Below, in pieces: positions 20,182 through 52,066 of a DNA stretch of 64,000 nt. A program made the position numbers and the translations under genes. The notes under the pieces were generated by a model. It had not been told where the DNA came from. It made no database searches and was given only the letters and a program-made list of their open reading frames with translations. The first letter of the stretch is position 1, and each line of letters begins with the position of its first letter. The stretch covers positions 310,001 to 374,000 of the forward strand of contig JAHBBC010000027.1 of NCBI GenBank assembly GCA_019915015.1, written 5' to 3'. The stretch is from Auriscalpium vulgare (Eukaryota; Basidiomycota; Agaricomycetes; Russulales; Auriscalpiaceae).

Positions 20182-20187
20182 CAATTC
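20182..20187. repeat. Left target-site duplication of the outer element (CAATTC)
   Basis: CAATTC immediately precedes the terminal TATGGGCACTATACTG and recurs at 52061-52066 directly after the opposite terminus. Confidence 0.85.
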
Positions 20188-30310: not shown

Positions 30311-30806
30311 TGTCGCGTTGTTCCGTTGTTGCTCAGTAGGCGAATTTTGAATCGAGGCAGTCAGAAACCATAGGAAGAAGGAAGAACGTCCGTAACATAG
30401 ACCGTTTTCAATGCGCGCCTTGTGCCTGGACCGATGCACCGTGAGTGCGGTCTGACGAAGAGTGATAGAGTCGATGAAGGACGAGCGCACGACGCGGCGC
30501 GTTGTGAGTATAGGGCTTGGAGCTCAGTCCTAGTGCTTTAGCAGGCCTTCACTGCGACACCCACACAAAACACTGCCCCCGGAACTGAATCATCTGGTAC
30601 ATATGTACATATATTGCTGCAATCCAGCTTCCTGTGGCTTTACGGTGCTTGTTCTCTCAAAGCCGAGGGCTACCGAATCACTGTCGGGGATCTCGGGCAT
30701 CTCTCTAGCAGCAGCCCCATCCCTCACAACTTAGCTGTACCAGCCGAGGGCTTTTCATTCACAATTCGATGTCAAGAAGTCATGTTTCACAGCAGCTATA
30801 TACGTT

Positions 30807-32042
30807 TTACAAAAAGCGGATGACGCCCAGGGCCCTCTCAGCGCCTCCCCGCACATGGACGAGACCCTCCTCCAAAGCCAGCGCATAAGCCCGATCGGCT
30901 GCCCCCTTCGTCGAGAACTTGCAGTGTACGTTGAGCGGAATGCCGAGCACAAGCCCGCCATGGCCCCCCTACTGGGACATCAGGTGGTGTTCATGAGCCT
31001 GTGAATGGGGCGCACCAGTTTGGGAAGACACCGGTTTTCAGGCCGGCGAAGACGACATACCAATGCTTCCTATGGCCTCTGCAGCCATGGGGGCACGCCG
31101 TGGGAGGAGCAGCTGCGGAAGGGTCGCTGTACTTGCGGGCCTCATCCTGTTGCTTGCGTCGCTCGGCCGCCTCCTGCTCGCGGCGTGCAGCCAGCTCGAA
31201 CTCCCTGCGATCAGCTTCCTCCCGTCGAGCGGCAGTCTCCTCCCGTTCCTTGCGCTGAGCCTCCTCCCGTCGCGGCGGTCACGGGCCTCATAGTACGCGC
31301 GGATCTGCTGAGCGCGCTAGGACGTTTCTCAGTCTTGAACAATGTCACAGAAACACCGTTACTCACCTCTTCTATCGTGTCTGGGCCCAACGCCTTCACC
31401 TCCCCGGCGGCACAGCGCCCGCCCCCATTCCCGGATGGCGCGCTCCTCGGACCTGCTCTTCCGGTACTTGACTTCCCCCTCCTTGTATCCCACCACCTGT
31501 CGAACGGCGTCGTCCTGATTGAGGTGAGTCCTGTGTCGTCAGGTTATGTACCGAGCTTACCAGTCGTAGAGTCCGGGGACGAAGCCGCGGTAGACGACCG
31601 TGTCGAGCTTGTAGGGTCGCCTCGTCGAAACCGCGGGTCCTTTTGAAGCCGGAGGAGAGGTGGGGGGAGGTGCTGAGGGGACGGAGGGAGTAGGCTCGGC
31701 CTGTGACCCGTCTGGGCGCTGTCGTTGGCCTTGAATGCCCAAACCTGCGCGCCCGGGACGCCCTGCGAGGCCTCCGCCGCGCGGTACCTTGTACCGTCGT
31801 TAACAAACGGCTTATTGAATAGAGTTTTAAGAGAAAGCTTACCAGGCCTCCATGTGAACAGTGCCCCCGTTCTTGTCGACCTGGTAATGGTGTCCGTTGC
31901 TTTGCAGGGGCGGGCGGGGACTCTTGCGATCTTCGACGGTGCTGAGGTCGAGATTCGCCATCACCAGAGACAAATCGTCTTCCGGCGAGATTTGAGCCTC
32001 GATCTCGGGGTCCTCCAGGGTGTTGATGGGATGGCCTGCCAT
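30807..32042 (-). CDS. Viroplasmin/RNase H1 N-terminal-like domain protein of the KDZ transposon
   Basis: The ATG at 32042 starts MAGHPINTLEDPEIEAQ and an acidic N-terminus. A following exon holds YKLDTVVYRGFVPGLYDW, continuing as VRQVVGYKEGEVKYRKSRSE, which fits the RNase H1 N-terminal (viroplasmin) fold, a small hybrid- or RNA-binding domain. A charged coiled-coil follows (REEAQRKEREE repeated), then a second similar unit HWYVVFAGLKTGVFPNW, continuing as GLVLGIPLNVHCKFSTKGAA, and a stop at 30807. Several introns are needed and not all junctions were fixed, so intactness is uncertain. Such proteins are frequent in mushroom genomes; the role in this element is unknown. Confidence 0.55.
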
Positions 32043-32217
32043 GGTTGGCGTAGGTGGGAGCCTGGAGGGCGAGGACGGTGGTGAGGGTGTTCGTTTCACG
32101 GCGATGTGGAACTGTTTGCATCTGTTTGATTGATCGAGGCGAATCTCATACATCCGGATCTGAGGCACAAGTACGTTATATTCAACTTGGCAGAACATAA
32201 GTACACATATACTATTG

Positions 32218-35200
32218 CTACAACGTTGCCTGCTCCAAAGCCTCCCCGAGGCGTACCATCTCATCGTTCAATTCGTCATGTTCCTCGATCTCCAGCTCCG
32301 TCTCTACCGCGCCGGACTCGTGTTCGCTGCTGCTGACGACGGCGGTCGGTCCACCGATCGGGCCCGTGTACCCGGCGAGCCGGTAGATTTGCTGCAGGCG
32401 CTGTCGGTGGCGATCGTTGACCTTCGCGCGGCGACTGTGTAGATGTCGTATGTGGTCCGCAAGCCGTGGGTCTTCGCTACTAGCAGCCTCCTCCGCCCGG
32501 TGGTACGCGTTGTCCTCAGCGTCGAGCCATGCATGGAGCCTTGGAACTTCGACGTTCAGGCGGTGGATCTCTTCGCGCGCGCGGTGAGTCTTCAGGTACT
32601 TTGTGAGCGCCTCACGGTTCGCAGGTTGGGTCCACGGCTTCTCGAGTACGTCGTGGCGGGACTCCTTCAATAGGTCGAACTCACCAAGCCAGCCGTAGTT
32701 CACGACCTCGCTGTAGGGCAGTATTCGACGTGGGGGGTTACGATTCCCACGAATCGTTGCTTATGTCATGTTCATACAGCGTTTTTTCGGACCATGCAAC
32801 ACACCAAGTATAGCACTATATATAGTCATTTACTCCCACGATGATTTTTAGTCATGATTGTTGCGCTTTGGCCTCCCTCCCTTTTGCTCGGAAACAATTC
32901 CACAGATCATTGTCTTTGTGGCATTTTTGAGACCATACAAGGTCCACAGAAGATGAAAATAGAGATATTGCAAGGAATACTTACCGGTACAATTTGCAGA
33001 CGGGAAAGACAATGACATCATCCCGGGGTTTTAAATGTAATTTAAAACCCGGAATGATGTCATTGCTCTCAATCCCAGGTGTCATGTAGCAACCGCTTGC
33101 AACTGCATATTCAGTGTCCTCCACTGGTGCTGCCTAACACTGCGCAGCATTGCCCACCATCGCTCAGTACCCCCCAGGGTTGCTCAGTCATGTTGCAGTG
33201 GCACATAGTCTCCTATAGTACCACAGTATTATTATTTTATGTACTTATAATAGATATATCTGATTATGTAAAAAAAATCCCAGTCCAACCCAGAATTGGG
33301 AGTGGAATCGTACCGCCGTGCTACGCACCGGCCCACTCCCAGCAAGTCTTGTTGCGGGGCGAGGCGGTTGTAGTTGTCAACGGCGGTGCGGACGGCGGCC
33401 GAGCGGCGGGTGATCGCCGATGAGATATGCTTCCGCATTTTGTAGCCTATGGTTTTGTCAGGACGGAGTACAGAAAGGATCATGCCGCCACGCACCTGTG
33501 CCCGATATGTTCGCCTTCGCGAGCTCAAACACCCTCTGCACCACCAGCCTTCGAGCTGGTCCACTGCTTTGTCGAACTTCGTCCTCTGCAGGATGCCTAG
33601 GTTGCGCTGATATTCGGGAGTCTCGGGCGTCCAGGGCTCTGCAAGGCCGAGTCGACGCTCGAGGTCGGCGACAACGTTTTGCGCCAGGGAGAGCTTGGCG
33701 ACCGCGGCGCGGCGTTCTGCTGTGCCTGCCGCCTTTCCCGCCTTCTTCAGGACGCCCTCGTCGAAGCCGTCGGTGAAGGACGAGGGTGTGACGGTCACCC
33801 AGTCGACCGTCGAGACCCAGGCGTACTTCTGACTAGCAAACCTGTTAGAACGTTTGGAAACATCGTCAGGGGGGGCACTTACTTTGCATTATCGAGGTCG
33901 ATGAGGGCCTGGACATAGGCCTGCTCGTGCTCATCGGCTGCTGGCACCTTCTTGGCGTCCTGTAGATAGTTCCGTTCCGCAACGATCCACGACTCGAAGT
34001 CCTCGTCCGTGTAGCCGGCAGCTGCCTTGAAGAGGCGGACTTCAGGCTCGTAGTCGCTGAGTACCGCGATTGCTTGCTTGTAATTTTTGAGCAGAAAGTT
34101 TGCTAAGAGATTGGTGAGTTGGCGGTCGGTACCTGAGGAGTTCATTTACGTACAGAGCTCGGCGTATTTGTCTTCATCCCACTGCTGGATGTGGAGATGT
34201 ATGAACATCTTCCAGTGGAAGTGAGATGCGTGGCGGATGAGCCTCGCCACGGTGCCGAGGCTCGAGAAGATCCGCTCGCACGTCTCGAAATCCTCGAGGC
34301 CAAGGCCGGTTCGGAAGAGCGGGTGGTGGCAGAGTTGACACAGGCGGTTATGGGCGTATCCGTGGAAGGCGTTGACGATGAGCACGAGGTTGAGAGCTTG
34401 AGCGGAGTCCTTCAACGAGGTCGCCCGTACCGTCGTGTCCATGGAGCACCCTATATCGTACCCGACGCACTGGGCCTCTCCAAACTCACGCATGTACGCG
34501 TCGAGAATGGCTAGAGGATATTTCGCCCTCAAAACAAGCATCAGAGCCACGGGAAATGAGACAAGGATAAGGTCAGAACTCACAATTCCCCGCTGCGAAT
34601 CATTTCTTGCACCAGCTCGACAAGTCCATGTCGACAGGCACCTACGAAAATGCCAGTCTGTTCGAAGACGGCTGCCGTTTTCCCTGTCGACGTTGCATTC
34701 TCTGTGACCCACCGGTCGGTGCATTTGGTGGAGCTGCCGACGTCGGTCGGAAGCCCCTCCGTCATGTCGGGACTGGGCAGGTCGCCCGCGACGTCCTCGA
34801 CGTCTTCCACAGCGGCGCGTCGCTTTCGCGGCTTCACCTCGTCCTTGAAGGCGTCCACCTGTTCCGGGGTCTGGAAGTAGCTGCTGTTGAACGTTCGCTC
34901 GTCCGTGTGCCCGACGCCATTGAGCCGCTTGTGGGAGCTACATCCGTCCATCGCGTGCAGCCGTGCGGGCACCAAAACCGGCTCGTCAGGTTGCTGTTGC
35001 TTGCCCAATCAGCAACATGGCCTGCCCTCGAGGAGGACAATCTCACCTTGAAGCTGCAGCAGGGGCAGGAGTTCCGTAGGCGCCACCCTTCGGCATCGCG
35101 TCCCAGCGCACAATCGGCGCGCTTTTGAAGCCGCTCCAGCAAGTCAAAGTACGCGTCGAACGCCTGGGAGAATCTCTCCTGCAGGGCTGGGTTAGTAGGA

Positions 35201-36206
35201 TATCTAGACAGAGATTAGTACTCGCTGCAACACGGGGGGCTGCACGGACCGAATGTGTCGAGCATACCACTTTCATAAAACCCTGGATTCCAACCTGATG
35301 CCGGCGGCGGAGCTGGTGATAGAATTCGAGGAGTTGGATGGAAAACGCTGTTTCGGGCAGGAAGGGGATCCTCCCAGGAGGCCGTGGAGGACGAGAGATA
35401 CATTTGCTTCGTCGCCGGCACGTTGGACGATCTCGCGCGGGCTCGTAGCCTGAGGCAACGTCAGGAAAGTCTGGAAAGAGCGGCGGGACACGCACCATCA
35501 AGGCCGATGGCTACCACAAAAAACATGTGCGGCTGCTGTGCACTGGGTTCATCGGGGCGGTAGGAAGAGTCTTCGCCTTGGGGATACCTCCATGAGAGGT
35601 ACGCGTCGACCAGTTTGGGGGAGATGGCCGCCCACTCGCTGTGGACAGCGCGACGCCGGTCCGTGCGCGTTCGGTGGTCCCTGGAACGAATTTTGCCGCC
35701 ATATAGCCTAACAAATAATATGTGGATGAGGTCGGGAGGCCAGCAGACGAAGGGGAAAGGACGCACGATATCATTGCATGCAACTTAGCCCGATACAGTG
35801 CCCGGTCCTCGTCCGTGGTGGCACGAAGCTCACCATCCTCTCCCTCATCTTCGTCTACCCAGCTCTCGTTGTCGTCGGGGTTGTCTGTTTCCATAGGCAC
35901 ATCGAGTAGGGGTGGGATGGTGAAGTCGAGGGATACGTCGAAGCCGCCAAGCTCGAGGCCAGCCTCTGCGAGGTTGCGCCGAATCTGCTTCGTAAGTCCT
36001 ACATGTACCAAGTCAGAGTAAGTTTGCCAACAGTTAATAGGCGACGTACGATGTTCTTCTGACTTGCGATCGGACTCAAGCTGCCTCTTCCGCGTCTGGA
36101 TGGATGCTAGAGACATCTTCGAGCCGGCTGCTTGAAGACCAAGGCCGGCATTGTAGGTGATAACCCTGCTAGATGTAGAACGATTCTTTCTTGAAGCTGA
36201 ATACAT
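32218..36206 (-). pseudogene. KDZ transposase, disrupted by a 609-bp insertion and a frameshift
   Basis: The gene starts at the ATG at 36206 (MYSASRKNRSTSS) and ends at 32218. Diagnostic KDZ blocks in order are: FLPETAFSIQLLEFYHQLRR; ALGRDAEGWRLRNSCPCC, a Cys cluster; MDGCSSHKRL; KYPLAILDAYMREF, continuing as VGYDIGCSMDTTV; VNAFHGYAHNRLCQLCHHPL; ERIFSSLGTVARLIRHASHF; and YGWLGEFDLLKESRHDVL. Together these give the expected catalytic core. Two lesions are visible: a one-base loss between GLLGGSP and FLPETAF (about 35366), and a 609-bp insertion (32740-33348) between RLAPQQ and NPPRRILPYSEVV. Other gaps are spliced introns. The enzyme should move the element by cutting at its long inverted repeats, but this copy is probably dead. 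Confidence 0.85.
32740..33348. mobile_element. Hairpin-ended 609-bp insertion, copy 1, inside the KDZ transposase gene
   Basis: It lies exactly between codons that should be contiguous (CAACAA and AACCCCCC on the coding strand), with TT on both sides. The left end is ACGATTCCCACGAATCGTTG, a hairpin. The right end, read on the minus strand, is a nested stem: GGGAGTGG pairs with CCACTCCC around an inner GTGC/GCAC hairpin. A strong palindrome with arms CAATGACATCAT... lies at about 33008-33064. There is no coding capacity. Confidence 0.75.
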
Positions 36207-36413
36207 GCGTGAAGTGGTGAGAGCAGAGGTGGTAGGCGGAGGTAGGGCGAGTCCGCGACTCTGTCGCGCGGCGTGTTCCACGCCACACGTGATAGACGCG
36301 TTTGTTGACGGCACGTGTTGATTTGATCAATCATTCCCCTCACAATTACTATTAACTACTGCATTCACTAGCTGAGTATACATGTTGACTATAAAGAGAA
36401 AGGAGGTATAGAC

Positions 36414-37014
36414 CGAGCTCATCGTCGACGACGGCGACGACGGGCCTTGGCACGGCGAGCGGGACAGGCGCCGGCGGGGCGCCGCGGCATCAATCGGCAA
36501 GGGCGACGGGGCGCCCGGACCCGCGCTGCCACCGGCCCCGCAAATTTTCTGATTACGTCATGTTGGTTCTTTTCCCAGCTGCGGGAATACCCATATTGCC
36601 CCTTCCCCCGTGCCCCGCTCGCTTAGGGAGTGACACCATCGTGTTCCCCTTGAAAATGCGGTTCCAATGGTATATACATGTTACTATATACGGGAGGGGA
36701 CGGCGGGACAGTCGAGCTCGTCGTCGGTGACGACGACGAGCACCCTTAGCGCGCTGTCGGGACAGTTGGCGCCGGTGACGGCAGGCGCGGGAACGTCGGC
36801 AACGGGACGGGCACGTGCCCGATGGCTCTGATCCGGGACTATCTCCCGCTCACCCCTTATCACACTTATCTCTCGAGATCTCTTGATCTGCCGGGGTGCG
36901 AACGCTGGGGGAAGTGCTGCAGTCAATGATTTTGAGCTAATGATGCTAGTTAGCCTGGCCATCACACACACACTACCCGGGCTTCTTATCTTAGGTAAGA
37001 GGTACCATCAGGTG
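36414..37014 (-). repeat. Right terminal inverted repeat of the KDZ transposon
   Basis: 601-bp inverted copy of 21937-22538, ending CCATCAGGTG, followed by the duplication ACGTACAA (37015-37022). Confidence 0.93.
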
Positions 37015-37022
37015 ACGTACAA
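37015..37022. repeat. Right 8-bp target-site duplication of the KDZ transposon (ACGTACAA)
   Basis: Identical to 21929-21936. Confidence 0.9.
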
Positions 37023-38145
37023 ATAGTTCTGAGTCGCTAGAAGACGAAATAAGAAGTTACTATTCCCCCTTGTACTCAGGATCTCGAAAGAGCTTCTGAA
37101 GTGGTCTGACTTCACCACAACCCGTTGCTCTAGCTCTTAGACGCACGAAACTTCAACACCAATACCACGCCGCAATATCAATACGAATACGAATACCACG
37201 ACCCTCGACAAATCCCCTCTCGCCCTTCGAAATCTCCCTACGCCTCACTACTCTCTCCCTCGACACCACGCACCTTCAACGCAGAGATCAGGCCTATATA
37301 CGCCCCTCTGTTCCTTCGTCATTACCTCGTACTTCGTCCCTCTCGTCCTCGATATATTCCTCCGACCATTGCCACCGCTGCGTAATCCCCCTTCGACTTT
37401 CGAAATAGTCCTCGCGTCCCCTCCGACATTCCTAGCTTCCGTGACACATTCTTGGGAGCTCGCCCGTTGCGTCTCCAGCACTGCATCATTTTGGTGATCC
37501 GTGCCGTGTCTAGCTCGCGCACTATTGTCCTCTCCCCCAGCCTCTCGCACCCTCCGATCCAAGTCCTAGTCACCGTGTCCCACTCGTACACCGAGCAGGA
37601 TTTGCTGTGCGTAGTCTCGGGACCCTGACTGCACTCCCTCAACTCGATACGTTCACTACTGCGCTCTGAGGATTGGACATCAATATATATCCGCCTCACT
37701 ACCAGTTGGACGCCCATCAGCGGGTGATGGCCTTATCCCTTGTCCGGACATCTGGAATCACAGCGGTAGTTGGCCGTTTCTACAGTCCGGACATGCGTGA
37801 GCTGATGGCTTAGTAGGGAAAGTGTGACCGGTGTAGCGATGTAGGATACCGTTAGACTGCAGTTTGATTCCCCGTTGATGATTTTGGCTCCGCAACACAA
37901 TTTTTTGTACCCAACTGCTTTACCCCTTACAATCCCTCAGTGACAATCACTACATCCACAATGTTCCCTATGCCCTACTATACCACACAGGATCAATCAA
38001 ATTTGCGTGACTCAAAGTCAATAGTTCAGAAGGTTATAAGCCCGATAAGTTTGAGCCTCCGAATGGGCACGCATGCCGTCGATCTGCCAGACATCACAAC
38101 TATACTGTTGCAGCACTTCTTCTCCCCTTCGTCCCAGTCCTCGTT
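37023..38145. other. Interior remnant of the outer element, no gene recognised
   Basis: Continuation of the outer element after the KDZ insertion. It contains TGTCCGGACATCT and CAGTCCGGACATG (two near-identical palindromic words about 45 bp apart) and the pol III-like boxes listed separately. No protein domain could be read. Confidence 0.4.
37803..37875 (+). ncRNA. Possible tRNA-derived (pol III) element: A-box and B-box like motifs
   Basis: TGGCTTAGTAGG at 37805 matches the A-box consensus TRGCNNARYNGG at every fixed position, and AGTTTGATTCC at 37861 is close to the B-box GGTTCGANTCC. They are about 55 bp apart, as in tRNA genes or SINEs. No complete cloverleaf could be drawn, so a tRNA-derived SINE head or chance are both possible. 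Confidence 0.25.
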
Positions 38146-38630
38146 ATGGAGGAAACAACGGCAGCATCACACATCATCGAAATACCCGACGACCCCGGCG
38201 ACAAGGTATTCATCGCTGCTGAATGGATTGGACAGGGCAAGATCTACCCGGCGATACCACCTGCACATGTTGAAGCCCAGCTGAAAGCCGTTCTCGAGGT
38301 CCCATTCATCCCTCGAAAGCACATCGTTCCTCACGATCTGCCAGTCATCGAGCTGTTACAGCAAAATCTTCCCTCCCAGGTCAGTAGCCTCTTTGTACAA
38401 TATTTGTATCATCTCCACTAATTTATATTTTACCAGTACAGGTGGTCCGGAATTATCAAGCGCCGTGTGTACCGGGTTCGCGGGGCCAATGCCCTCTGGC
38501 ACATGGATGGCAATGAGAAGCTTCGTCCGTGGGGCTTCTATATCCATGGATGCATTGATAACCACTCGCGGATGATCATTTACCTTGCATGCCGCTCCAA
38601 CAAGCGCGCAAAGACAGTTGAAAATGTCTT
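38146..38630 (+). pseudogene. Truncated DD35E integrase fragment of the outer element
   Basis: From about 38446 the frame reads RWSGIIKRRVYRVRGANALW then HMDGNEKLRPWGFYIHGCID and continues to SNKRAKTVEN. This is almost the same protein as the intact integrase at 48915-50624, including the first catalytic Asp. After TVENV homology ends abruptly in subterminal AT-rich sequence, so the second Asp and the Glu are missing. An ATG at 38146 opens an upstream exon (MEETTAASHIIEIPDD...) that does not resemble the N-terminus of the intact copy and is joined by an intron. It is either a different 5' exon or the product of an internal deletion. Confidence 0.75.
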
Positions 38631-38824
38631 ATTTATCTGGCGCATCAATAAACCTGTGTCATTTCGATTGACTTCTGACATCGTACCTTCCTGTTGATTT
38701 TCCAGCTGCTTGCCTACAGATGTGTACATTTGTCGCAATTCACACTTACGCCAATATTTCGGCATGCACACCTGTGTCAATTTGCCAATATTTCTTGTGT
38801 ACGAACAAGTCTGAAAATAAGTAG

Positions 38825-38830
38825 CCCTCA
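38825..38830. repeat. Left target-site duplication of the inner element (CCCTCA)
   Basis: CCCTCA directly before TATGGCAAGTATACTG; repeated at 51808-51813 after the opposite terminus. Confidence 0.88.
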
Positions 38831-38861
38831 TATGGCAAGTATACTGTAAAAGTATTCCAGA

Positions 38862-39060
38862 TTATCGGCTCAAATCCGCACATGTTTGCAACGCAGCAAT
38901 ATATACACAGGCTGTCGGATATGAATTTAATACACGCAAGCAATGTCTGACAGAGTTATTTTGCACATGTCATATGAAACCAGCAATTGACACAGGTGTT
39001 TGCCGCGGCAAAGACGCACACAGGTTCCGAATGAGCTCTTAGAATTAACACAGGTTCTGT
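38862..39060. repeat. Left subterminal repeats of the inner element
   Basis: AT-rich stretch with CACATGTT, ATACACAGGC, GACACAGGTG and ACACAGGTTC words about every 25-40 bp, oriented as at the left end of the outer element. Confidence 0.6.
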
Positions 39061-39640
39061 ATGCAGGGAAATTACACAACAGTGAAAGAAATAAGACTCA
39101 AAGGAAAGAACACAATGAGATATTGACACAGCTCCATCAATTGATGCCCCTAGATAAGCGCAGGCAGCGAGGACCGCGTAGGAGACATCCTGTCGGAACT
39201 GCCGCTTTGGGCCAGCTCTAAAGCCTAAGTATGTCGCTTGCTTCTTTGCTTCTCAGGGACGGCTACTCAGTCGCATCTTTACCTTCATTCTTATCCTTCT
39301 ATAACTACCCTTACCGGAGCATTGTCTGAGTCTCGAACCAGTCTCAAACCCACTGATCCCTGACCTCTCCTGTCTATCTGTCGGACATGTCTCTGTGGGA
39401 AAACCTCGGGCGGACCTTTCATACTGGTGAGATTCCACCAATTCATTTAGCTGGCCCGGTCAGTTAGGTCGGCTCAAGGAGAGGGCAGCTTGAGGAGAGT
39501 GCAGGACTGTTTGTCCGGCACAAACAATGTCCCTTATCACGCGGCATCCCCATCTCTGAAAACTTCGCACTGCTCCTTTCCAGCCGTGCACCCCACACAC
39601 CAGCCAACTGCATCTTCTCCACTCCTCCTTCCAGCCAAAC
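39061..39640. other. Upstream region of the plus-strand gene of the inner element
   Basis: No gene is seen. It carries the transition from subterminal repeats to the first exon at 39641. Confidence 0.4.
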
Positions 39641-42600
39641 ATGTCGTCTACTTGGAGTTTATCCGTTGACGATCTCGGCAGCTGCACAGAGCCATCCTGC
39701 AGCGAGTCTTCGTGCCCTGTCGGATACTTCCCGATCGATGTCACTGTAGTCAACGATCTCAGCCGACTCCCCACCCTTTTGTGCGCATATTGCGAACATC
39801 CAGCGGTGTGGCATCGGCGCGCAGCACCCAGGACAAGCAGAAACGCACCCAGTGCATGGGATAATCCCAGTCAGCCGTCAGGTTCCGCCCTGCCACCCGA
39901 GGGGCACAAGTCGACAGCTTCTAGTGCGGGCAGCACTTCCAAATCTTGGACCCAGGTGCGTAGCCGCATCTATCAACTGCTAAATAGACTCCCCTGATGC
40001 GATATATCTCATAGAATGGCGGACTTCCTCGCAAGACACAGGAGAAGATGATGGACTCTCGCGGCTCAACAAGCAGTGCGTCCTCTCTCCTGCTCACACA
40101 CTGGCACATGCTGACATGATCTCCAACCTAGGGTCATTAAAGTCATTCAAGGAGCATATCAGACACCGGAAGGATCACCTATCAAGTGGCTTATCTCCAG
40201 CTGGGGCGGACGCCTTCTACCCGGCAGGGAAGGTATGGTGAACCACCTCACTCTGCGCTTTGGAAGTGCTCTGATTCAGTGTTGGGGTGATCAAGTCACA
40301 GCAGCAGGCTTCAGAAGAGTCCTCACATCGCAAGCGCAAGCGAGCTGAAGATTTGAAGCCCGGAAGTAAGAGCAAGATTGGGAGTTCAAGTCGTGCCGCT
40401 CCGGGGGCGTCCAAGCCGCTCAAGACCACCAAAGTTACGGTCATCTTAGTGGAGAACACAGCAAAAGTACATCGCGGATGTTACGTTCGACCCGACATAA
40501 ACAAGTACGTCGTGTCCGTATTCCTTCTTCTCCAATGTACCGATTAATTTGCATTCAAGACAGGGAATACTGGATTCAGCGAAATTGGTCCAGACGCTCA
40601 ATATACCAGAGAGCGCGGATAGCGGCACAATCAATGCGCTAGTCGACGACGCCTTTAGGCCAATATTTCAATATGCAGAGGCACGCATCAGGTCCATGGC
40701 CAACCCGAATAGCACTCGTCCTTGGACACTCCTGCGATCGAACGCCCACCAAGGCAGCTCCACAATTCTTTTCCCTGAGCACGCTAATAATGTAGCTGAT
40801 GCGATCAATTCTGATACGTTCATGCGGTATGCACCAAACTTGCTATCTCCAGGAATATTTGCGCTGAAGATACTCGTAGTGCTGGATTGAGCAAGCTGCG
40901 CAACGTTCCAGCTGCTGCTGGATTCAAGATTACGGTGTACTTGGCGTTGGTCAAAGGATCGGAGAATATTCCCCTACCCTCTGGCCCTCGTCGCCGTCGA
41001 CAGCAGACGACAGAAAGCAGCGGCAGTGGAGACAGTGACAGCGACACACACTCATAGCGAGAGCGATCCCATTATTATTAGTGACTCTGAAGTCCCCGAT
41101 CATCCAAGTGAAAGCGCTCGAGCGCAGGCAACGGTAGATTTATCTCTCGATGCATAACAGCGCTTTATCTAACGACAGCTATATTTGCAGTCCGAGAATA
41201 ATACCGCGCGTGACTGGACACCATCGCCGTCTGAGCATGCAGGCAGATATGGCCCGGGTAGTTCAAGAGGTGCTGCGCCTACGGTGAGCCATCAGTCTGT
41301 GTGGTGCGCGACCTATGACCATGCTCAACAGACTTCATATGTAGCGCGACTATGATGACGCTGAGCGCGATGAGATGCTTGACGACCCGGACGCCGATGA
41401 CGATGAGATGGCCGATAATGATGTGTCCGGGTCCCGTGCGTCACCTTCGGGATCAACTGCCCAGCAGCCCGACTCGCCTCCAAAAGTGCCGGAGTGTCAT
41501 CTCGCTCTCCGTCGCGCACTGTGCACTGTGCATCAACCCTCGGGATTGGGCTCGGGATCGCCAAAATCCTGGGTAGGCAACGCTCTTTTTGTCTATCTCT
41601 CTTATAAATGACTGACTCTTACACCTTTTGCACACAAGTGGGCAGCCTCGCGAGAGACTAGCACCGACGCCTTTGTACGTGTTGACCACAATCTTGTGGC
41701 TTTGCAGAATTTTGAAGACCGCCGGTCCATGGGCAATGCTGGGGTGACGGCAGACATCGTGTGGTCCGCCTGTGCGGAACCATTCCTGACTTCATTGGAT
41801 TTTCTAGACGAGCTTGTGCGGCTCATTGAGCCAGCCAACTCACACGAGAATCCAGAGACCAGCCTCGACTGTCGAGAAAGGCTCAGTCTTGGTTTACGCC
41901 TCGGCCCATTCGGACTTCAGGCCGCTGTCAATGGTCTGGATATTTTGTACAATCTCCTTCCCGAGACAAACCCAGGGATCACACGGGGCACGTATGATGT
42001 GCGACTGAAGGTTCTCACCCACACATCGGAGACAGCCCTGCGGCTTCTCACAGACTTCTTATGCTCCTTCCCACGACACATGTACGATCCACCAGGTCTG
42101 CAGGCTGTGGGTGTCCTCCTTGATCGGAATAAAACAAAGTCGACCTTCTCCGTATGTATCCTTATATTCTGGTGCACTGGTACCATGCTGATGGAACGCA
42201 ACTAGGATGCCGATGAAACAGACTGGTCAAAGCTCACAGTGCCAAACCTGGTTCTCAAGCGAGCGGACCCGTCCGCTCTCAAGCATGCTCTTGAACAGGA
42301 CTATGGCCACTGGTCAGATCATAGCGCGATGCGGTACAATGCTATGTATTGTGGCGAGCACGGTCTTGACGGTTTGATCACCCGTGTTGTCCATCCCTTC
42401 CTGGACGAGTTTCCCATCGAGCATCCACACTATGCGGAGTTCTTCGAGATCTTCGAGGGTTTTTTCCGCGCTGTTGATCACAAGCTAACGAGCTACAAAA
42501 AGGTGCGTGGCGTTTATATTGGCAATTCATATTGATAAATTCTTAATAAATGTGTGCTAGTCCCACGGCAAGAACAAGGCGACGACACCGCAGTCAGAAC

Positions 42601-43391
42601 CACCACCGAGAAAACATACCCGAAGCTCGGTGAGGCGGTTACTCGTATTTTCTGCACGGCTCGTACTCATGCGTTGCCGCTGTTCATCAGCACCAGACTG
42701 ATTCAAATGCTCATGTGTCGGACGGGACGGAGGGAAAGCGGTCAACACGGAGCGGAACGCGTGCACAGTAGGCAACATACTTAGTTTCTGAATAATGTAC
42801 GACACGTGTCTCATTCGACAAATTTTGTTTCCTTTTGAAACAGGCAAGCACGTACTGAGGAAAATGCGTACGCAAAAGGTGCAGATGCAGCACCCAATTC
42901 TCCCATCAATATATCTTCAGATGACGATGCACAAGAAGACGACAGCGCGTCTTCACCTGTAAATCCGATGCCAGAGCGTAAGCCTCGACCATACGCAGGA
43001 GGGCCCACCAGCTCCAAATCGGACGCAACAAGATCACCTAACCGCGTGTTACAACGCCTCCAGCTCCTCCAACAGGCCAAGCAGCTGGAGCAAGCCGCCG
43101 CTCTCCGAGGGCAGACATAAACAAAGATTATTGACATTATTTACGACCAGTTTCCGGTTCGAAATGCCCCACCGAAACATGATCTAGCCGTGATGATCCC
43201 CAGCAAAGCGATTCTCCTGCTGCTCAAGGTAGTATTCCGCTCTGGCTTATAATTTCATGAACTCACCGCCGCTGTCACGCAAATACCAATTCCAGGTGTA
43301 CCATCCTGACAAGCATGCCCAATCTGAACATACACAAAAGCTGTTCACTGCCATTGCTCAAGCACTGACGGGCCTTTTACCAGGGAGATAG
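39641..43391 (+). CDS. Large spliced transposon protein of unknown function with C-terminal J-domain-like HPDK segment
   Basis: The ATG at 39641 starts MSSTWSLSVDDLGSCTEPSC. Coding exons follow, separated by short GT-AG introns: FKEHIRHRKDHLSSGLSPAG then GADAFYPAGK; a basic linker RKRKRAEDLKPGSKSK; QGILDSAKLVQTLNIPES; NICAEDTRSAGLSKLRN; a long block with NAGVTADIVWSACAEPFLTS and GLDILYNLLPETNPG; and WSKLTVPNLVLKRADPSALK. The last exon reads LLLLKVYHPDKHAQSEHTQK and ends at 43391. HPDK is the hallmark of J domains, which recruit Hsp70, but the surrounding helices are poorly kept. Between SDTFMR and NICAED the frame changes by either a 26-nt intron or a one-base loss. Not all junctions were fixed. 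I do not recognise the rest of the protein. Confidence 0.55.
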
Positions 43392-45057
43392 ATGCGAGGG
43401 TGGTGGTCAGTTTTGGCTGTAGCGTATCTCATATCTCGAGTGCGGAGAAATGTCACGTGATCTATGTGCGACGCAACAAAGTTGAATTTACAGCAACCGG
43501 GGCATCTACCGCTAAGGTTTCGGATAGTGTGCGATGTGTCTATACCATACCAAAACAATATATTCTGCATCAAAACCATTACAAATGCGTCTGGTTCATG
43601 ATCCCGGGAGGGGGAGGGGAGCACCGGGGCAGGTCACGTGTCGTGTCGGAAGCGTCCCGCTGTGCTTCAAGTCAAATCCATAGCTCTCGGGGCATCTACA
43701 GCTAACATTTTCAAAGGGAACCTCACATCAGCCACGTCAGGGCTGCTCGAGCAACACCGGCCTATGTTGACTAATTCTTGCAGTGCAGGCCCCAACTTGG
43801 TCAACAAGTCAGCGACGGACGGTCATTATCGCCCTGCGTCACTGCGCACTCAAGAGACAAGCCGTGCTCGTGCACTGCGACGCGCAAGGCTAAGCAGCAG
43901 ACGCTTGGCTGCAGGCGAAGGTCAGCAAGACCCCGATGGACACATCAAGGGGAAACTTACATGAGCCATTGCAGGGTTGCTCGAGGACGCTGACCTATGC
44001 TTGCAGCGCAGGATGCATTCAACTTCGACAGCACGCGGAGCCCACAAGCTCATCAATCGTCCGCGAGCCGTGGTCCTCGCCCATCGCTCCCAGCACGCAA
44101 GTCTTCCCGCAAGTGCGCTGTGCCCATCGCGCTCGGGTTCCCGGAGTGCAGCGGGCGGGGAGCCACGGCGCAATGACGCGGTGCGCGTGTTCGCGGCCGA
44201 TCGTCTGCTCGACCTTTTCATTGGCCGTTGGGCGGAATGACGGTGCGTGGGAGATGATGCTTTCCAACGCGCCAGCCCGTGGTGCTCATCGAACGCATGA
44301 CGGTGGCGAGCACACACGCTATGGCTATGTACCCGGCGCACTGTGCGTCGATGACCCGCGCACTGCTCGTCTCTCGTAGAGTGCAGGCGGGCACCGGGCA
44401 TGCCTCGGATATTCTAGCTAACTAACTGCGCCCCTTCAAGTTTTGGATTGGCATGCCCCAGCAAGCACCAACCTGCGACCCCGGGGACGTACGCGCTTCC
44501 CTGCTGCTTCTTGTGCGTACACTGCTAAACAGGGACACAGCGCGCCCTTCAAATGCGTTCTCTTCCTCTTATGCGACATTGCGACCTCGTCCCGACAATT
44601 GCGCTTGTCCTGCGTCTTCAGCGATCCGTGTGTTTTGCTGCACGCGCGCACTCCCTGGTCTCGCCCGCCCTCGAACGCAGCCACTTGCGCACGGCCGCCG
44701 CGATCTCCGGCCCGCCTGACACATACGTCTCGGAGAACCGCGACCCGTCCGCGCGTCCGGGATATCCAGATCCGCGCCGAACTCGATGGGCACGTCGTCG
44801 ACGGCTCTGACGAACCCGGACATGATCGCGCCGGCGATGGCAGTCATGCCGTAGATGTTCTGGTGGTTGGGCGCGAGTCAGTCAGATTCCTTTGCGTGCT
44901 TACCAGCGTCGACTGGCAGCGCAGCCTGGGTGAGCACAGGGGCTGCCTAGGTGTGAACAAATATGAATTCGATCTAAATGAATGAAATATGTTACGAGCT
45001 GGGCGCGAGTGCTCATTGTCTGCCGGTATGTGGGATTACTAAAGAAACAAGTCATCG
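43392..45057. other. Non-coding interior of the inner element with short repeats
   Basis: The word GGGGCATCTAC followed by an AGCTAA/CGCTAA-type end occurs at 43499 and 43687. A diverged direct repeat (GGGCTGCTCGAG... at 43740 and GGGTTGCTCGAG... at 43975, each ending CTTGCAGYGCAGG) lies about 235 bp apart. Frames on both strands at 43.9-44.9 kb are unconvincing. Confidence 0.4.
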
Positions 45058-47431
45058 TCATTGGGGTGCCGCCTCCTGTCCGTCATGATGCCTCGCTCCA
45101 ATCGCGCCCGCGATGCGCACTGCTGTCTGCAAAACTACCGCAGCATCAGCACTCTTACGCTTTTTGGCTGCTGGTAACAACTGTGTCACAGCCGCTTCTG
45201 TATCACTAGACCGGTCGGCGTCTGAAGATGAAGTGGAGGATGACGCATGGTCAGCGCGGGCAACAGAGCGGCGCAGATGAGCAGAGGCAGTGATTTTCTT
45301 GACTTGTCGTGTCTTCACCGCCTTTGACACGGTACCCTTGCGCTGGCCGTCCAATGACAGCGTCCTCCGCTCAACGCTCCGAATTTCGCGCTCCACATAG
45401 AACACCGGGACAGCGGGTCTGGATCGCCTTGACAGGCTATCACTCTAGCGAGCGCAAATGTTAGCGGCTATGCGTAGCATTATTATATGGAGCCGCTCGC
45501 GCGTGTACGTACCTTCGCGATACGCCATCCAGCAGCTTGATGGAAACCCCATTACCACAATACTCAAGCGGACCGATCGCAACGTCCTTCGTGTGCTGGA
45601 TGATGTAGGAAAATAATTTCTCCTTGTACGCGCTGCCTTTTTGAGGCTTCAAGGGTGTCCTGTATGATGTAGCCGTCAGAACCAGGGGCCGGAGAGAGGC
45701 CCAGGTGATAACAGGGCGTACCCTTCAGGAACAACGGTGGATGGGATAACAGACCATATCTGCTTCTTGGTCAAATATAGTTCAGTGCGAGGATATCTCT
45801 TCGCCATTGCTGGACCATCAAGGAACAAATCGCCCGCATTGTAGAGCGTGGCACAGAGATAGGTCGGCGACGCAAGAAGTCCTGCAGAGTTTTATGAGAG
45901 TTGAGCTCGCACGTAAGTCGGAGATGTAGATTTGGAGAAATACCTTCTGCGCGGTAGTATGCAGTCAGCGGATCATCGACTGGTACTGGAGGCTGGTCCG
46001 GGAAAATGGCCTGCCAACGCTCAGCCCCAAAAATGAGGTGGCCAAGGTGGCCCTCCTGCAACAGTGTTGTCTTGAGATAAGACGGCTCGAAGGCATCGCA
46101 GAATTCAGGGCTGGAGACATCGTTACACGTCTGATAATTGATTCCATCAGTCGGAAGTCGTAAACTGTTGAACCCAGATGGAATGGCGCACATTCATCCG
46201 TTCAATAAGCTCCACTGTGCGCGACGAGGTCCGCACCATCTTCTTGCCGTACACGAACAAGTACTTGCTGTATTGCTTGCGTTCTCCAATAGTCGGTGCG
46301 AGGATACCATTGCCGCGACGAATGCAAGGCACAACGAGCTCTGGCCTGTGTATCAAAGACCGCCGAGTGAGCGGGCACGAGATAGGGACAAAGATGGGTG
46401 CGGCATACCAGACACAATAGACAGAGGTCCACGCAAAACAGTAGAAAGCCTCGCACAAGCGAGCGCAACGCGACGGGCAATCGAAAACGTCTGCCTCGGT
46501 TAGCCACGGAGGAAGGCCAGCAAGGAAGGCAATTTCCGATGACGTATAAACACCAACCCCGAAGAAAACGTCTCGCATCTCCCGGATGGCGTCAATGACG
46601 ATGCGCTGGCGGCGCGCAGCTCTGTAGTTCTTGCGGTTTTCTTTGATCCAGCCTACCAGGAGAACGAGAACCGAATGGTACGACTCCAGGATATCGACAA
46701 ACTGGTATGGGACCTTCTCGTCGGAGAATCCCCAGCGCATCTGTCAGAACAAAATTAGCCACATGCACGGACGACCGCCTGGCAAGGAAAACACTCACCT
46801 GGAACAGATTATCGCGGGTATTGAATGATATGACAAAGTCCTGAAAGACAAACGCAACTCCAATGCGGAACACTCGCAGCTGCAGAACAAGGTGCTCAGA
46901 GAGGTGCAGTCGGTGACAGAGTCAGAGCAAGCAATGACATACATCGCGCGGCACATTGCAAATGGACGTCTCCCATGTGCGAAAGGAATAGAACTGTGTC
47001 GATGTATGTGTCAGGTACTGGAACTGTGCGACCGGACGTCAAAACAAGACAAATGACCGAGACAGATAGCCACGTACTTGCATCCAGAGCTTTCCAAAAT
47101 TCATCAGAACGGTGCGTGACGTTGCCTTGATACCGCAGAGCACAAGCCCGCTGAGCTCATCCGTAGTTTGCAGTTGAGGCGGCCAGATGGGCGTCTGGCC
47201 GCGCAGCTGCCCACGCTGTGCCTTGGATTGTGGTCCCAGGATGCTGACAAGGTCCTGACACTGTCTTTTGTCGTGCCGCGGATGCGCGTCGCCCAGAGCT
47301 TTCATGGCCTTCACCTCCTCGCCAGTCGCGTCGTACCAGAGGGAGGCCAGCCTCCAGTCCGAGTTGGGGTTCGCCTCGAAGACTTCTCGCAAGTACGCCC
47401 CACTGGCCATGCTTTCTCGATACTCGGGCAT
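45058..47431 (-). CDS. Spliced transposon protein of unknown function (inner element, second gene)
   Basis: The ATG at 47431 starts MPEYRESMASGAYLREVFEA. Exons continue with LCGIKATSRTVLMNFGKLWM, FVFQDFVISFNTRDNLFQ, MRWGFSDEKVPYQFVDILES, then FFGVGVYTSSEIAFLAGLPP, GKKMVRTSSRTVELIERMNV, LLQEGHLGHLIFGAERWQAI, YNAGDLFLDGPAMAKRYPRT and EKLFSYIIQHTKDVAIGPLE, ending with a Lys/Ser-rich tail at 45058. The blocks are separated by stretches with GT-AG ends and stops, as expected for short introns. They follow one another in a single strand without visible lesions. No known domain is recognised; the many Trp/Tyr/Phe residues suggest a folded protein, not a low-complexity one. It lies between the exon-module array and the non-coding centre. 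Confidence 0.5.
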
Positions 47432-47911
47432 CGAGGGAGAGGAGGTGCAGAGGGGGTTAGTGTCTTGTGGATGAGGCAGATGGAACGCGAGGGCAAGGCA
47501 CTCTGAGCGCGGGTTTTGCCGGTAATCAACAAGCTCGCGACGCGGTGCGAGACGGTCACGTGCAACGCGCATTCCGCACCGCTTGAGGTGTACCAATCGG
47601 ATTTGTTTTGGTTTCTGTGCAGGGGCAAGGGTTTTAGAACTATCTCGAATGATCTAGCTAGGTCTCAGAGCTTAGCCGTAGATGCCCCGGCCCACACAAA
47701 TTTTTGGCAGCGAGAGAGGTGTCCCGAAAAGGAAGGTATGGGCAGTGGCGTCGCCTCTCCTTATCGCGACCTTGCTCAGTGCTTCACCCCATACGCCCGC
47801 GAATTCTAGCCCAATTCCTTTCGCCTCAACGGCGCTGGTCAGCTGTGCGTCTCCCCTCCACAGCACTGCAGGCCGCGTTAAGATCTTAAGATCCGTGACT
47901 CCTATCTCGAG

Positions 47912-48440
47912 GTGCGTCGTCTTTTCGTTGCTTTGCATTAGCCTATGCTCACAGAGGAGTATCCCAGCCAATTCGGACCCAATCTCTCTCGTCTCAGCGA
48001 CAGCGGAGAGCTGTAATCCACCCGCGTTCACCCAGTACGCCGCGTCGCGATGCGTGCCCGGAGTCTGGAGGTGCGTCGTCTTTTCGTTGCTTTGCATTAG
48101 CCTATGCTCACAGAGGAGTATCTCAGCCAATTCGGACCCAATCCCTCTCGTCTCAGCGACAGCGGAGAGCTGTAGTCCACCCGCTTCCACTGCAGTACGC
48201 CGCGTCGCGATGCGTGCCCGGCGTCTCGAGGTGCGTCGTTTTTGCGATGTTTTGCATTAGCCTATGCTCACAGAGGAGTATCTCAGCCAATTCGGACCCA
48301 ATTCCTCTCGTCTCAGCGACAGCGGAGAGCTGCACACCACCCGCTTCTGCCGCGGTACGCTGCGTCGCGATGCGTGTCTCCACGCCCCCTGTACGTCGTT
48401 TTTCATCCTATTAGCATACTATATTCTAACTAATATAACA
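47912..48440 (+). repeat. Tandem array of exon-intron-like modules (period ~160 bp)
   Basis: Three near-identical units each consist of a 43-nt segment starting GTGCGTCGT and ending CCTATGCTCACAG (47912-47954, 48071-48113, 48231-48273), then a 116-117-nt segment starting AGGAGTATC. A fourth, diverged unit lies before them (about 47745-47900), and a final GTACGT...ATAACAG segment follows the array. The 43-nt parts have perfect intron-like ends, and 117 nt is 39 codons, so the array looks like an exon plus intron multiplied in tandem. Open frames exist on both strands, so the coding strand is not certain. Confidence 0.7.
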
Positions 48441-48914
48441 GTTTCAACTCATGACATCTCACATGGTCCCCGACGCGTTCGGATCACTGTATTTTCTCGG
48501 TGTTGGAGGCGCAAGGTATACTCGGGGTGTTCTTGGTACGGCAGAGAGTCGGGAAGTGGTGTGAACGCAGCAGTGCTGGCCTAGGGTCGAGAGATCGAGA
48601 GAGTGGGGCTTGCGCAGGGAGGCAGCTTTGACGGTGCGGATGGAGAAGAAATGGCAAGGGTAAGAGGGTGTAATGGTATGGTCCTAAAAGAGAGATGATG
48701 CTGTCAGTGCGCGACGATAACATCGTCAGCATTGTCAGTGTCGGCATCAGCCAGCGCGCTCGTTGCACCGGTCTACCTGGAGGCATTTTCATTGTGCAGC
48801 AGAGCTGTCGCCGACGCAGCTGGAATCCAGAGCCTGAGTGATCTCATGTTTTCCATGGTTCAAAGACTCGTGAGATGTACTAATACTACGGTTATAAAAT
48901 CTGATCTTTGTCTG
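48441..48914. other. Spacer between the module array and the integrase gene
   Basis: No gene is seen. It presumably holds the 3' end of the integrase transcript. Confidence 0.35.
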
Positions 48915-50624
48915 CTATGTGCGCATACGCGCCTGCAGAAGCAATACTGCCTCACAGTAAGTATCAATTCCCCACTTTTGATCATCTGCCTGAAGGTCAA
49001 TGTCCGATAGAAGGTCCTGAGCATCGGTAAGGTCTTCATTGTCCTCGCCTATGTGATCTTGTTCGGTGTCCCCTTCCGCTGCAAAACCGGCCTCGTGTTC
49101 CTCATCTCTCACCTCATCAGCCGGAGGCATCGGTGCGTCGAAATCCACACCGTACAACGGATCGGACGCATCTTCAGGGGGATCACCCGGGTCGCCGGTC
49201 CAGTAGCCCCCGCGCAGGGCTTTTTCCCGACTGAGCTCATATAGAGCAAGCGGTGTGCGATGTTGAGCGGTACGAATGCTATGGTGATTCCAGGCATCCA
49301 TCGTGCGATTGAGTGATTCTTGAATTCGCGGGAGGAAGACAAGGATAAGGCAAGCACGATGGGCTGGGTCTTCCATGTTGAGAAGCCCACACTCTTCAAG
49401 ATGGAAGAACACTTGACGGTAACTTTCAACGGTGCCCTTGCGCACGTCACGCCAGAGGCGCTCAATCCGGACGTTGTGCACAGACCTTCCGAGAGAAGTG
49501 AGCATTCCCTCAGTGGGACACTAGAAATGGTATGTGCACGAACCGTCCTCGGAGATACGCACGGTGATGCTCACCGCGCTTCTCGATCATCCTCCGCTCA
49601 ACACCATTGTTCTCTGTGCCGAAGTCTCCCCGCACCCGACTTGGCCATCCAAACACATCCACGGCTTCCGCAAAAGCACTCTCGACGGTGTTGGAGCGCT
49701 TGTTGGAGCGACATGCGAGGTAGATGATCATCCGCGAGTGACCATCAATGCATCCGTGAATGTAAAAGCCCCAAGGTCGGAGCTTTTCATTTCCATCCAT
49801 ATGCCAGAGTGCATTTGCCCCGCGGACACGATACACGCGCCGCTTGATGATACCGGACCATCTGTAGAGAGGTTCAGATAAAATCATAAGCAATTCAAGT
49901 CTGGAAATCAGACTAACCTGGTCAGAACACCCAGGGGGTCGACACGGCGCAAACTTGCTTGTACCCGCTTGAGCGACACATGAATATTTTTTGATTCTAG
50001 GTGTCCTTTCACCAAAGCTGAACCTTCAAAGGGATGGGCGAGTGAGATTTCAGCCACCGACTCATCCAAATCGTCGTCGTCGATGGCGGTCAACGCAGGT
50101 CGGGATGATGATATGCCATTGGCTCGGAGGTGATTGTAGATAGTTTGCCGAGTGACGCCCATGACGGTCGCAATCTCCTCCCAGGGGTTTCCCAGATCAT
50201 GCAGAGCGATGGCACGAGCAAGATTAAGTTGGAAAGCAGGTTGGCCAGGCCTTCCGGTGTAGACCCGGGGGAGACGTTCTGCATGAGAGGTAGATCCTGC
50301 CTCCAGATGGGCAACAAGGGGCTGCAAGAGGTCTTCCACAAAATTGAGAAGGCCATCTTGATCATCTGGTGTGGTGTACGGATCATCGAGGTTGGTCAAG
50401 ACACGCCGAATGGCCTCGAGCTGAAGGCAGATACGCTCCACAGCAGGAGTCTCGACGTTCGGAAGAGACTGGATGATGAAATTTGCCTCCACAGAGATTT
50501 TGTGGGCCTCCACCAGAAAGGTATGGACGCCAGGTTGACCATCGGCTGCCGGCGGGGAGTGTGGGTAGTCACCACCATCTTCATCATCGGACTGCTGCAT
50601 ATTATGTTCTTCTGTGTCAGACAA
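48915..50624 (-). CDS. DD35E integrase/transposase (retroviral-integrase-like core domain)
   Basis: Exons 50624-49918, 49861-49544 and 49485-48915 with introns of 56 and 58 nt join in frame to 531 aa. Residues ~136-168 form a helix-turn-helix (NPWEEIATVMGVTRQTIYNH). The catalytic core has Asp258 in WHMDGN, Asp315 in RVRGDFGTEN and Glu350 in VRIERLW, so the spacing of the last two is exactly 35, the DD35E signature of retroviral integrases. GCIDGHSRMI and SVHNVRIERLWRDV match the integrase-core family found scattered in fungi and fish. The C-terminus is acidic. All catalytic residues and the frame are intact, so it is a good candidate for the enzyme that moves this element family. The second intron uses a GTTCGT donor, which is unusual. 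Confidence 0.85.
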
Positions 50625-51420
50625 ATCAGATAAGATACAGCTCCAAAAATGAGAGCAACTAACCTTAGCCTGGACTGTTAGATTGACTGAGTAAATGTCC
50701 CTGGAATGCCCTCAGGTAGAAGCGGCTGTCATCAGCAAAAAGTGCTGAAGTCGCGAGAAGGCGCCTATGCCTTCCCCATTGGGACAGGCCTCAGATGGGT
50801 ACCTTTTCAGTTGCCTCGCAAACCGCCGGTCGGGGACGCAACTGTGCATCCCTCCCCGGCCAGATTTTCCGCGGCGCCGTGCAGCTCTTGAGCGCAGCTG
50901 CTCGAGCTTGTGTCGTGGCTATTGTTCAGGTCCGTGAACTTGCCGTGAACGGCCACCCAGCGCCGCGCGCAGGCACACCGGAACCCGTTCTCGGACCAAT
51001 ACACCAATACTTGGCGATCATGGGGGGTGCTGCATGTTGTGTCTGCTGTGGCAGCGATGAAGGTGATGGTGTTCTGGTGCTGAGTGTGCGCAAGGACGCG
51101 ACGGACGGTCGAGGAGGTGCTCAGGTTTGCGCCGTGGACCTATTAGGAGGAGGGCTGGGAGCTGAGGCTGGACGATGTGAGGATTGTACGCACGGTCATA
51201 GTCGGTCATAGTCATGCCTCATGTGTGCGTCAAGCCGGCGTGGCGACGACGACGACGATGACGGACAGATGGGGCTGGGTCAACGACATAGTCGTGGGGA
51301 CGGCACACTGAGACTTTGCGGTGCAAGGACCAGGCGGGGGCCGAAAATACCAGTTCTCTGACTCTCAGGCTGGTCATCGGTCGATGAGGAGGTCGATGAG
51401 GAGAAATTTCAGTCATTCAA
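50625..51420. other. Upstream region of the integrase gene, no gene seen
   Basis: Frames here are short or low-complexity. It contains a GACGACGACGACGATGACGG run near 51245. Confidence 0.35.
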
Positions 51421-51780
51421 ACCTGTGCATATATTGAATTCTTGTGAGCATGTGTATATTCTCATGCTTTTATATACTTGTGCAAATTCTTATGCTCGAA
51501 CTTACTTGTGTATTTTCGATGAACCATTGGAACATGTGCATATTTGGCCACTTCTGGTACACGTGCATATTTTGATACATCCAGATAACCTGTGCATATT
51601 TTATATTTCTGGGACTTGTGTGTATATTTTGCATGTTGTAGGTCCTGTGCATATATCTCTGCATGCTGGTGCTACTTGTGCTTGTCAAATGCTCTTCTCC
51701 ATGAACTTGTGCATATTTTACTAGAGTAACAGCTCACTTGTGTACAAAATAATGAATTTTGTTCGACCTGTGTAAACCTG
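51421..51780. repeat. Right subterminal repeats of the inner element
   Basis: The words ACTTGTGCATATTTT or ACCTGTGCATATTTT recur about every 30-45 bp (near 51421, 51474, 51536, 51560, 51590, 51650, 51705). They are the inverted counterpart of the ACACAGGT words at the left ends, so the element carries inverted arrays of the same site. Confidence 0.65.
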
Positions 51781-51807
51781 GAATACTTTTACAGTATACC
51801 GCCCATA

Positions 51808-51813
51808 CCCTCA
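51808..51813. repeat. Right target-site duplication of the inner element (CCCTCA)
   Basis: Identical to 38825-38830. Confidence 0.88.
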
Positions 51814-52060
51814 CCCCTGTATGCTGTCAATTCTCCCACATAAACAACCTACGCTGATTTTGAGAGCGCACCAAAACCTGTGTAAAATCTTCAGCTGTGT
51901 TGATTTCTCCGCATATGTGACATGTGCGCATATTGCTTGCAAGATGGCACTTGGGTGAATTACAAGATATTTTAGGCATCTGGTGTCAATTTCTATGCAT
52001 TTTGCGAGATGTGTAAATTTGGACCATATTCTGGAATACTTTTACAGTATAGTTGCCATA
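51814..52060. repeat. Right end of the outer element with subterminal repeats and terminal inverted repeat
   Basis: Contains ACCTGTGTAAA, GCTGTGTTGA and GATGTGTAAATT words and ends with GGAATACTTTTACAGTATAG followed by TTGCCATA. Confidence 0.75.
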
Positions 52061-52066
52061 CAATTC
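52061..52066. repeat. Right target-site duplication of the outer element (CAATTC)
   Basis: Identical to 20182-20187; host sequence resumes at 52067. Confidence 0.85.

Follow-up and report, generated by a model that had tools for sequence, protein, structure and literature searches.

In the 64,000-nucleotide stretch of Auriscalpium vulgare DNA analysed here (the window, on contig C27), a 12,977-bp transposon at positions 38831..51807 was found which is, in our judgement, very probably a recently mobile DNA transposon of the IS3EU/GingerRoot group carrying a gene (gene B) of the Fpg/Nei DNA glycosylase fold. This judgement, in which the class is assigned from published feature descriptions, covers the element class and the gene B fold jointly and not the function of gene B. 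The element also carries a transposase gene (gene T) and a further companion gene (gene A). The element class itself is already catalogued and the novel part appears to be gene B as a protein of predicted Fpg/Nei fold; no description of a transposon-borne Fpg/Nei-like glycosylase gene was found in the titles and displayed abstract openings of the papers listed for IS3EU, for transposon-encoded glycosylases and for Fpg with fungal transposable elements. The features of this element, referred to below as the inner element, are as follows.

38831..51807, no strand: inner transposon, IS3EU-type (basis: terminal inverted repeats, duplication, related uninterrupted site L012 and a second copy on contig C8)
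38831..38863, + strand: left terminal inverted repeat, 33 bp, begins TATGG
51775..51807, - strand: right terminal inverted repeat, 33 bp, finishes CCATA
38825..38830, no strand: left target site duplication CCCTCA, perfect 6 bp
51808..51813, no strand: right target site duplication CCCTCA, perfect 6 bp
38866..39250, + strand: left subterminal array of 6 CACA[AGT]G words, all oriented alike (basis: word count against shuffles)
51400..51770, - strand: right subterminal array of 12 CACA[AGT]G words in mirrored orientation (basis: word count against shuffles)
39641..43391, + strand: gene A, about 15 hand-joined exons, no assigned family; C-terminus weakly similar to DnaJ; reading frame interrupted by a slip and by an in-frame stop
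45058..47431, - strand: gene B, 9 hand-joined exons, open 632-residue frame starting MPEYRES; a homologue has an Fpg/Nei-fold model
48915..50600, - strand: gene T, transposase, 3 hand-joined exons, 523 residues, open; helix-turn-helix and rva_4 core with D250, D307 and E342

Ends and classification of the element

The two terminal inverted repeats are 88% alike over their 33 bp, and CCCTCA is present on both sides. A preliminary description of this DNA had placed an integrase-type transposon with 6-bp duplications and repeats of about 30 bp at exactly these coordinates, and it was correct in each of these respects. In an outer-type copy on contig C8 (L012), the flanks of the inner insertion are continuous and share a single CCCTCA, and this related uninterrupted site fixes the boundaries of the inner element. 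When up to 3 mismatches are allowed, the window holds four occurrences of the 21-bp end of the repeat, against a mean of 0.00 in 100 shuffles. The right terminal repeat recurs at 52031-52051, just outside the inner element, and a left repeat matching it lies at 20197 (2 mismatches). The inner element is thus nested within an outer element of the same family, which had been missed in the preliminary description.

20190..52060, no strand: outer element with the same terminal inverted repeat family, interrupted by the inner element and probably by other inserts too
20184..20189, no strand: left outer target site duplication CAATTC
52061..52066, no strand: right outer target site duplication CAATTC
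38440..38631, + strand: piece of the outer element's transposase gene, sharing 90.6% identity with gene T across 64 residues

The inverted subterminal arrays that had been described proved to be real and mirrored, and their word is looser than was thought: three exact copies of ACACAGGT lie near the left end of the inner element, and a single copy of its complement lies near the right one. With the word CACA[AGT]G, which was picked post hoc after inspection, no words were found on the opposite strand of either array, none of 500 shuffles reached 6 or 12, and no words were present in two control stretches. The left end of the outer element holds 12 such words (reached in 0/500 shuffles) and its right parts hold weaker arrays of 2 and 3 words, reached in 48/500 and 3/500 shuffles respectively.

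The core of gene T was found to match rva_4 (221 bits) far better than rve (24.6 bits) in Pfam. In NCBIfam, matches to IS481 (51 bits) and IS3 (40 bits) span both the helix-turn-helix and the core and lie under the curated cut-offs, and an HHCC-type zinc-binding integrase domain is absent among the Pfam matches at E<=0.01. Our alignment of 18 homologues from fungi and animals, taken from the best 120 of 260 database matches, shows that all 18 retain the E and the second D, while 17 retain the first D and the remaining one has a gap there. The intact D-D 35 E integrase of the preliminary description keeps its open frame and its triad, with the numbering D258, D315 and E350 shifted by 8 to D250, D307 and E342 and with 34 residues between the last two. 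Gene T may bind the terminal repeats and arrays through its helix-turn-helix, and by analogy with its family it would cut and paste the element with staggered target cuts of 6 bp (once 7 bp).

These features were compared with published descriptions of IS3EU elements. TET-positive fungal IS3EU elements are described by Kojima as having 6-bp duplications, terminal inverted repeats longer than 30 bp and TAYGG..CCRTA ends (PMC12730594), and IS3EU elements in general as having TA..TA ends and usually 6-bp duplications (PMC10045372). Here the termini are TATGG..CCATA, the repeats are 33 bp, the duplication is 6 bp in four of five insertions and 7 bp in one, and the transposase has an IS3/IS481-related DDE core and a helix-turn-helix with no HHCC zinc domain. 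IS3EU elements have already been counted in mushroom genomes (PMC8955403, PMC12411881).

Polinton/Maverick elements resemble this one in their integrase-type transposase and 6-bp duplication, and Ginger1 and Ginger2 in their integrase-type transposase. We agree with the preliminary description in rejecting both, on gene content and on duplication length. No polymerase B, packaging ATPase or capsid match in Pfam was obtained for the 20 exons or frames scanned together with the A, B and T models, shorter frames lying outside the scan, and the duplications of 6-7 bp differ from the 4 bp of Ginger1 and the 4 or 5 bp of Ginger2 (PMC10045372). In addition, three 6.2-kb repeats that are about 99% alike (L057 821-7021 on C14, and L058 and L059) carry a transposase relative about 40-43% identical to gene T. 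These repeats, on C14, C3 and C18, were rejected as IS3EU copies because no good TA..TA inverted pair was found and those on C3 and C18 have common flanks.

Gene B and the Fpg/Nei fold

A total of 25 gene B homologues from other mushrooms were listed. The predicted model of one of these, P0001, has the two-domain Fpg/Nei fold, and the structural alignment to Fpg/Nei proteins extends to residue 451, as judged from the alignment ranges. The N-terminal Pro2 and Glu3 are also retained, since MPE begins 15 of the 25 homologues (with MVE in one, MPR in one and other predicted starts in 8), the gene B of the window and the one on contig C1, as it does all 7 Fpg proteins compared. The changes P2T and E3Q impair NEIL1 (PMC5566547). 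Beyond the region of likeness, gene B has a large extra C-terminal part in which a GPLEYC motif was observed in 24 of 25 homologues. Upstream of gene B, at 47874-48352 of the window, a 160-bp unit is repeated three times in tandem, the copies being 82-100% alike.

Several observations weigh against placing gene B within the Fpg/Nei family. The fold model is that of P0001, which is 39% identical to the window gene B, and not of the window protein itself, and the Foldseek template modelling scores against Fpg/Nei targets lie at 0.45-0.65 when taken by target and do not exceed 0.31 when taken by model. The window gene B matches no Pfam model at E<=10, and a sequence search of the Protein Data Bank with the gene B alignment gave nothing convincing (one match, E 0.98). 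A scan of viral contigs with MutM yielded a single near-identical locus, which plays no part in the conclusions. With hhalign, the 25 homologues matched the 7 Fpg proteins weakly (P 0.0015, probability 17%), a set of 10 homologues gave P 0.0078 and a probability of 5%, and the controls gave P 0.03 and 0.72; the alignment to Fpg is confined to the H2TH region. In that region the GxGN motif, whose Asn is invariant in the 7 Fpg proteins, was found in none of the 25 homologues, and 19 of them have GxGVY with Val for Asn. We therefore call gene B Nei-like and not a proven member, because the frame of the H2TH motif is present but its Asn is missing.

That neither companion gene belongs to a Pfam family agrees with the preliminary description, which had reported two long spliced genes of no known family. 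The gene B frame is open over 632 residues, and gene A is broken. The profile and structure analysis suggested there led, for gene B, to the Fpg/Nei-fold model of its homologue, which had not been foreseen. For gene A, an AlphaFold model from a 3-row alignment was uninformative (predicted local distance difference test score 34, predicted template modelling score 0.24).

Copies in the genome and recent movement

In the genome (G000; 51.6 Mb, 96 contigs), the 19-bp terminal core occurs ten times with 2 mismatches permitted, all ten being exact, and these form five elements; the reversed core used as a control does not occur in the genome. Two elements are of the inner type (C27 and C8) and three of the outer type (C27, C8 and C25). 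Their duplications are CCCTCA (C27 inner), CAATTC (C27 outer), TGAAAC (C8 outer), CAAAGT (C25) and the 7-bp ACTATAC (C8 inner). Between the two inner copies one gap and no substitution were observed, the compared loci spanning all but about 950 bp, and this near-identity indicates that the inner element moved recently.

The inner insertion on C27 lies 253 bp from the right end of the outer-type copy. At about 1261740-1292100 on C8, the inner copy interrupts the left terminal repeat of an outer-type copy and is flanked by its 7-bp duplication. The terminal 300-bp stretches of the three outer-type copies amount to about 1.8 kb of 51.6 Mb, and two chance insertions there are very unlikely by this rough, post hoc estimate from two insertions. 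The two cases suggest that the inner element inserts near the putative transposase-binding arrays of related elements. For work on transposons, the window offers an IS3EU-type copy that moved recently and whose ends are exactly placed, together with a sister element and a related site that is uninterrupted.

Gene A and the conservation of the companion genes

Gene A carries an in-frame TAG at 41055-41057, where the frame shifts, followed by a TAA at 43118-43120, and both lesions are also present in the C8 copy (L019). Relatives with each position open exist, since the partial annotated protein P0026 reads past the first lesion (ending before the second) and the gene A on C25 has no stop at the position of the second. 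Because the two near-identical copies share the damage, an intact gene A would have been dispensable in cis for the last movement, and we regard gene A as a putative accessory gene with no role assigned. P0026, an Auriscalpium vulgare protein with 95% identity, is its one database match in an exact-word search that may miss distant relatives, and its genomic matches are limited to C27, C8 and C25. Its C-terminus resembles DnaJ weakly (E 0.0012, 19.3 bits against a cut-off of 27.8, over 27 residues), with the HPD also found on C25, and no other Pfam match was obtained for gene A.

The C25 element is 10.1 kb long with outer-type ends. Of the transposase it retains residues 20-56, and of the 625-residue gene B model residues 408-497 and 507-612. 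Gene A is kept as well, and the order of the three relative to one another is unchanged, but neither the catalytic portion of T nor the beginning of B was found on C25. The ratio of nonsynonymous to synonymous substitution rates (dN/dS) was calculated between the inner element and C25. In gene B it is 0.17 over 168 codons, in gene T 0.11 over 37 codons, and in gene A 0.24 over 321 codons of one half and 0.28 over 481 codons of the other; T compared with the outer fragment of the window gives 0.03 over 64 codons. These values come from ungapped blocks of at least 15 codons with more than 45% identity, which biases them low, and in B and T the dS values approach saturation. C1 carries, on one strand and separated by about 9.5 kb, a transposase 34-36% identical to gene T and a gene B 32-49% identical by piece; no TAYGG..CCRTA pair with equal 6-bp flanks was found there within 30 kb. 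In Favolaschia, a gene B protein (P0008) and a transposase (P0058) are on contigs that are both 781,795 long, a weak hint of co-occurrence among the 25 gene B proteins and the best 120 of 260 transposase proteins.

Alternative explanations

The preliminary description had proposed a distinct, undescribed group, a new superfamily between Polinton and Ginger. The two companion genes without Pfam families speak for it, as does the lack of an alpha-kinase match in the element, unlike the TET-carrying IS3EU elements (PMC12730594). However, the element shows every IS3EU feature from the literature that was open to testing and fits a catalogued group, and we regard a new superfamily as highly improbable. 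It was also recognised there that the companion genes might be unrelated passengers absent from other copies. A chance capture of A and B by one copy would agree with the complete three-gene set occurring only in two near-identical copies, which represent one lineage, with the C8 outer copy, in which the stretch read matches none of the three genes, and with the presence of only a T fragment in the outer part of the window. The outcome nevertheless favours the companions, as C25 keeps A together with an N-terminal piece of T and a C-terminal piece of B in the same order and at low dN/dS, T and B relatives are neighbours on C1 too, and gene B has 25 homologues. We therefore consider chance capture very unlikely, if somewhat less so than a new superfamily.

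With respect to function, the reading that we favour is that gene B would excise modified cytosine or other modified bases from the DNA of the element and so reverse methylation-based silencing. We advance only tentatively the proposal that it is an active Nei-like glycosylase and apurinic/apyrimidinic lyase acting against silencing, parallel to the TET/JBP dioxygenases of other fungal transposons. In alignments of outer-type copies with at least 88% identity, 73 of 397 CpG positions show a transition, compared with 60 of 1358 for the remaining C/G positions (a position counting as CpG if either copy has CG), an excess expected if the elements are CpG-methylated. There is, against this proposal, no strong CpG depletion (observed/expected 0.97 in the inner element, 1.02 in the outer and 1.10-1.11 in the flanks) and no TET/JBP match in the inner element. 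A reading that we find plausible, short of probable, is that gene B has kept the Fpg/Nei fold, lost glycosylase activity and become a DNA-binding partner of the transposase, for end pairing or for recognition of nicked or gapped ends. The Val in place of the H2TH Asn, the lack of a sequence match to Fpg/Nei families over the cut-off and the big GPLEYC-bearing C-terminal part all point this way, whereas the retention of Pro2 and Glu3, at which changes impair NEIL1, speaks against it. Fpg/Nei enzymes work in base-excision repair, and gene B might instead mend lesions or gaps arising in transposition, with no connection to cytosine methylation. Transposition does leave single-stranded gaps, which are mended by cellular enzymes (PMC10045372). 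A repair role nonetheless seems rather unlikely to us, as the host already has an Fpg/Nei-like gene on C31 (H2TH over the cut-off; Fapy_DNA_glyco under it, with a stop in the matched stretch) and the outer-family copies show the CpG-transition excess. If the Nei/Fpg fold and N-terminus are borne out, this transposon protein would be an anti-silencing or end-repair tool, and the likeness of fold hints at the identity of a family of 'hypothetical' mushroom proteins.

In the genome, 11 Tet_JBP matches over the cut-off were found, which serve as context for the proposed action of gene B on modified bases. Six of them share one score, a pattern that a TET-carrying transposon in many copies would produce. 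Furthermore, a gene at 24476-26431 of the window (- strand), inside the outer element, shows weak similarity to 2OG-Fe(II) oxygenases (E 0.048). A 238-residue part of it has 106 genomic matches, which places the gene in an extensive repeat family that may be of a distant TET/JBP type.

Comparison with known systems

The element shares TA..TA ends, terminal inverted repeats longer than 30 bp, 6-bp duplications and an IS3/IS481-like DDE transposase with IS3EU/GingerRoot elements, including the TET-positive ones of rust fungi and Tuber. In the TET-positive elements, too, the transposase is opposite in orientation to a companion gene, which is an alpha-kinase there and gene A here. They differ in carrying TET/JBP and alpha-kinase genes where this element carries genes A and B (PMC12730594).

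Gene B shares with the Fpg/MutM and Nei/NEIL glycosylases the fold, in the predicted model of its homologue, and the N-terminal Pro2/Glu3. Unlike them, it is borne by a transposon, is about twice as long, has Val for the H2TH Asn, gives no sequence-profile match over the cut-off and has the extra GPLEYC C-terminus. The TET/JBP-carrying fungal transposons (Kyakuja, Dileera, Zisupton, Plavaka and others), whose dioxygenases are thought to counter methylation (PMC12730594), are alike in being fungal DNA transposons that encode a protein directed at the bases of DNA, here putatively. It is a possibility we hold as doubtful, slightly more so than glycosylase activity itself, that a transposon-borne Nei-like glycosylase is the base-excision partner of the TET/JBP oxidases and that mushroom transposons jointly carry both halves of a demethylation pathway. 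If gene B is such a glycosylase, the step supplied by those transposons would be oxidation and the step supplied here would be base excision.

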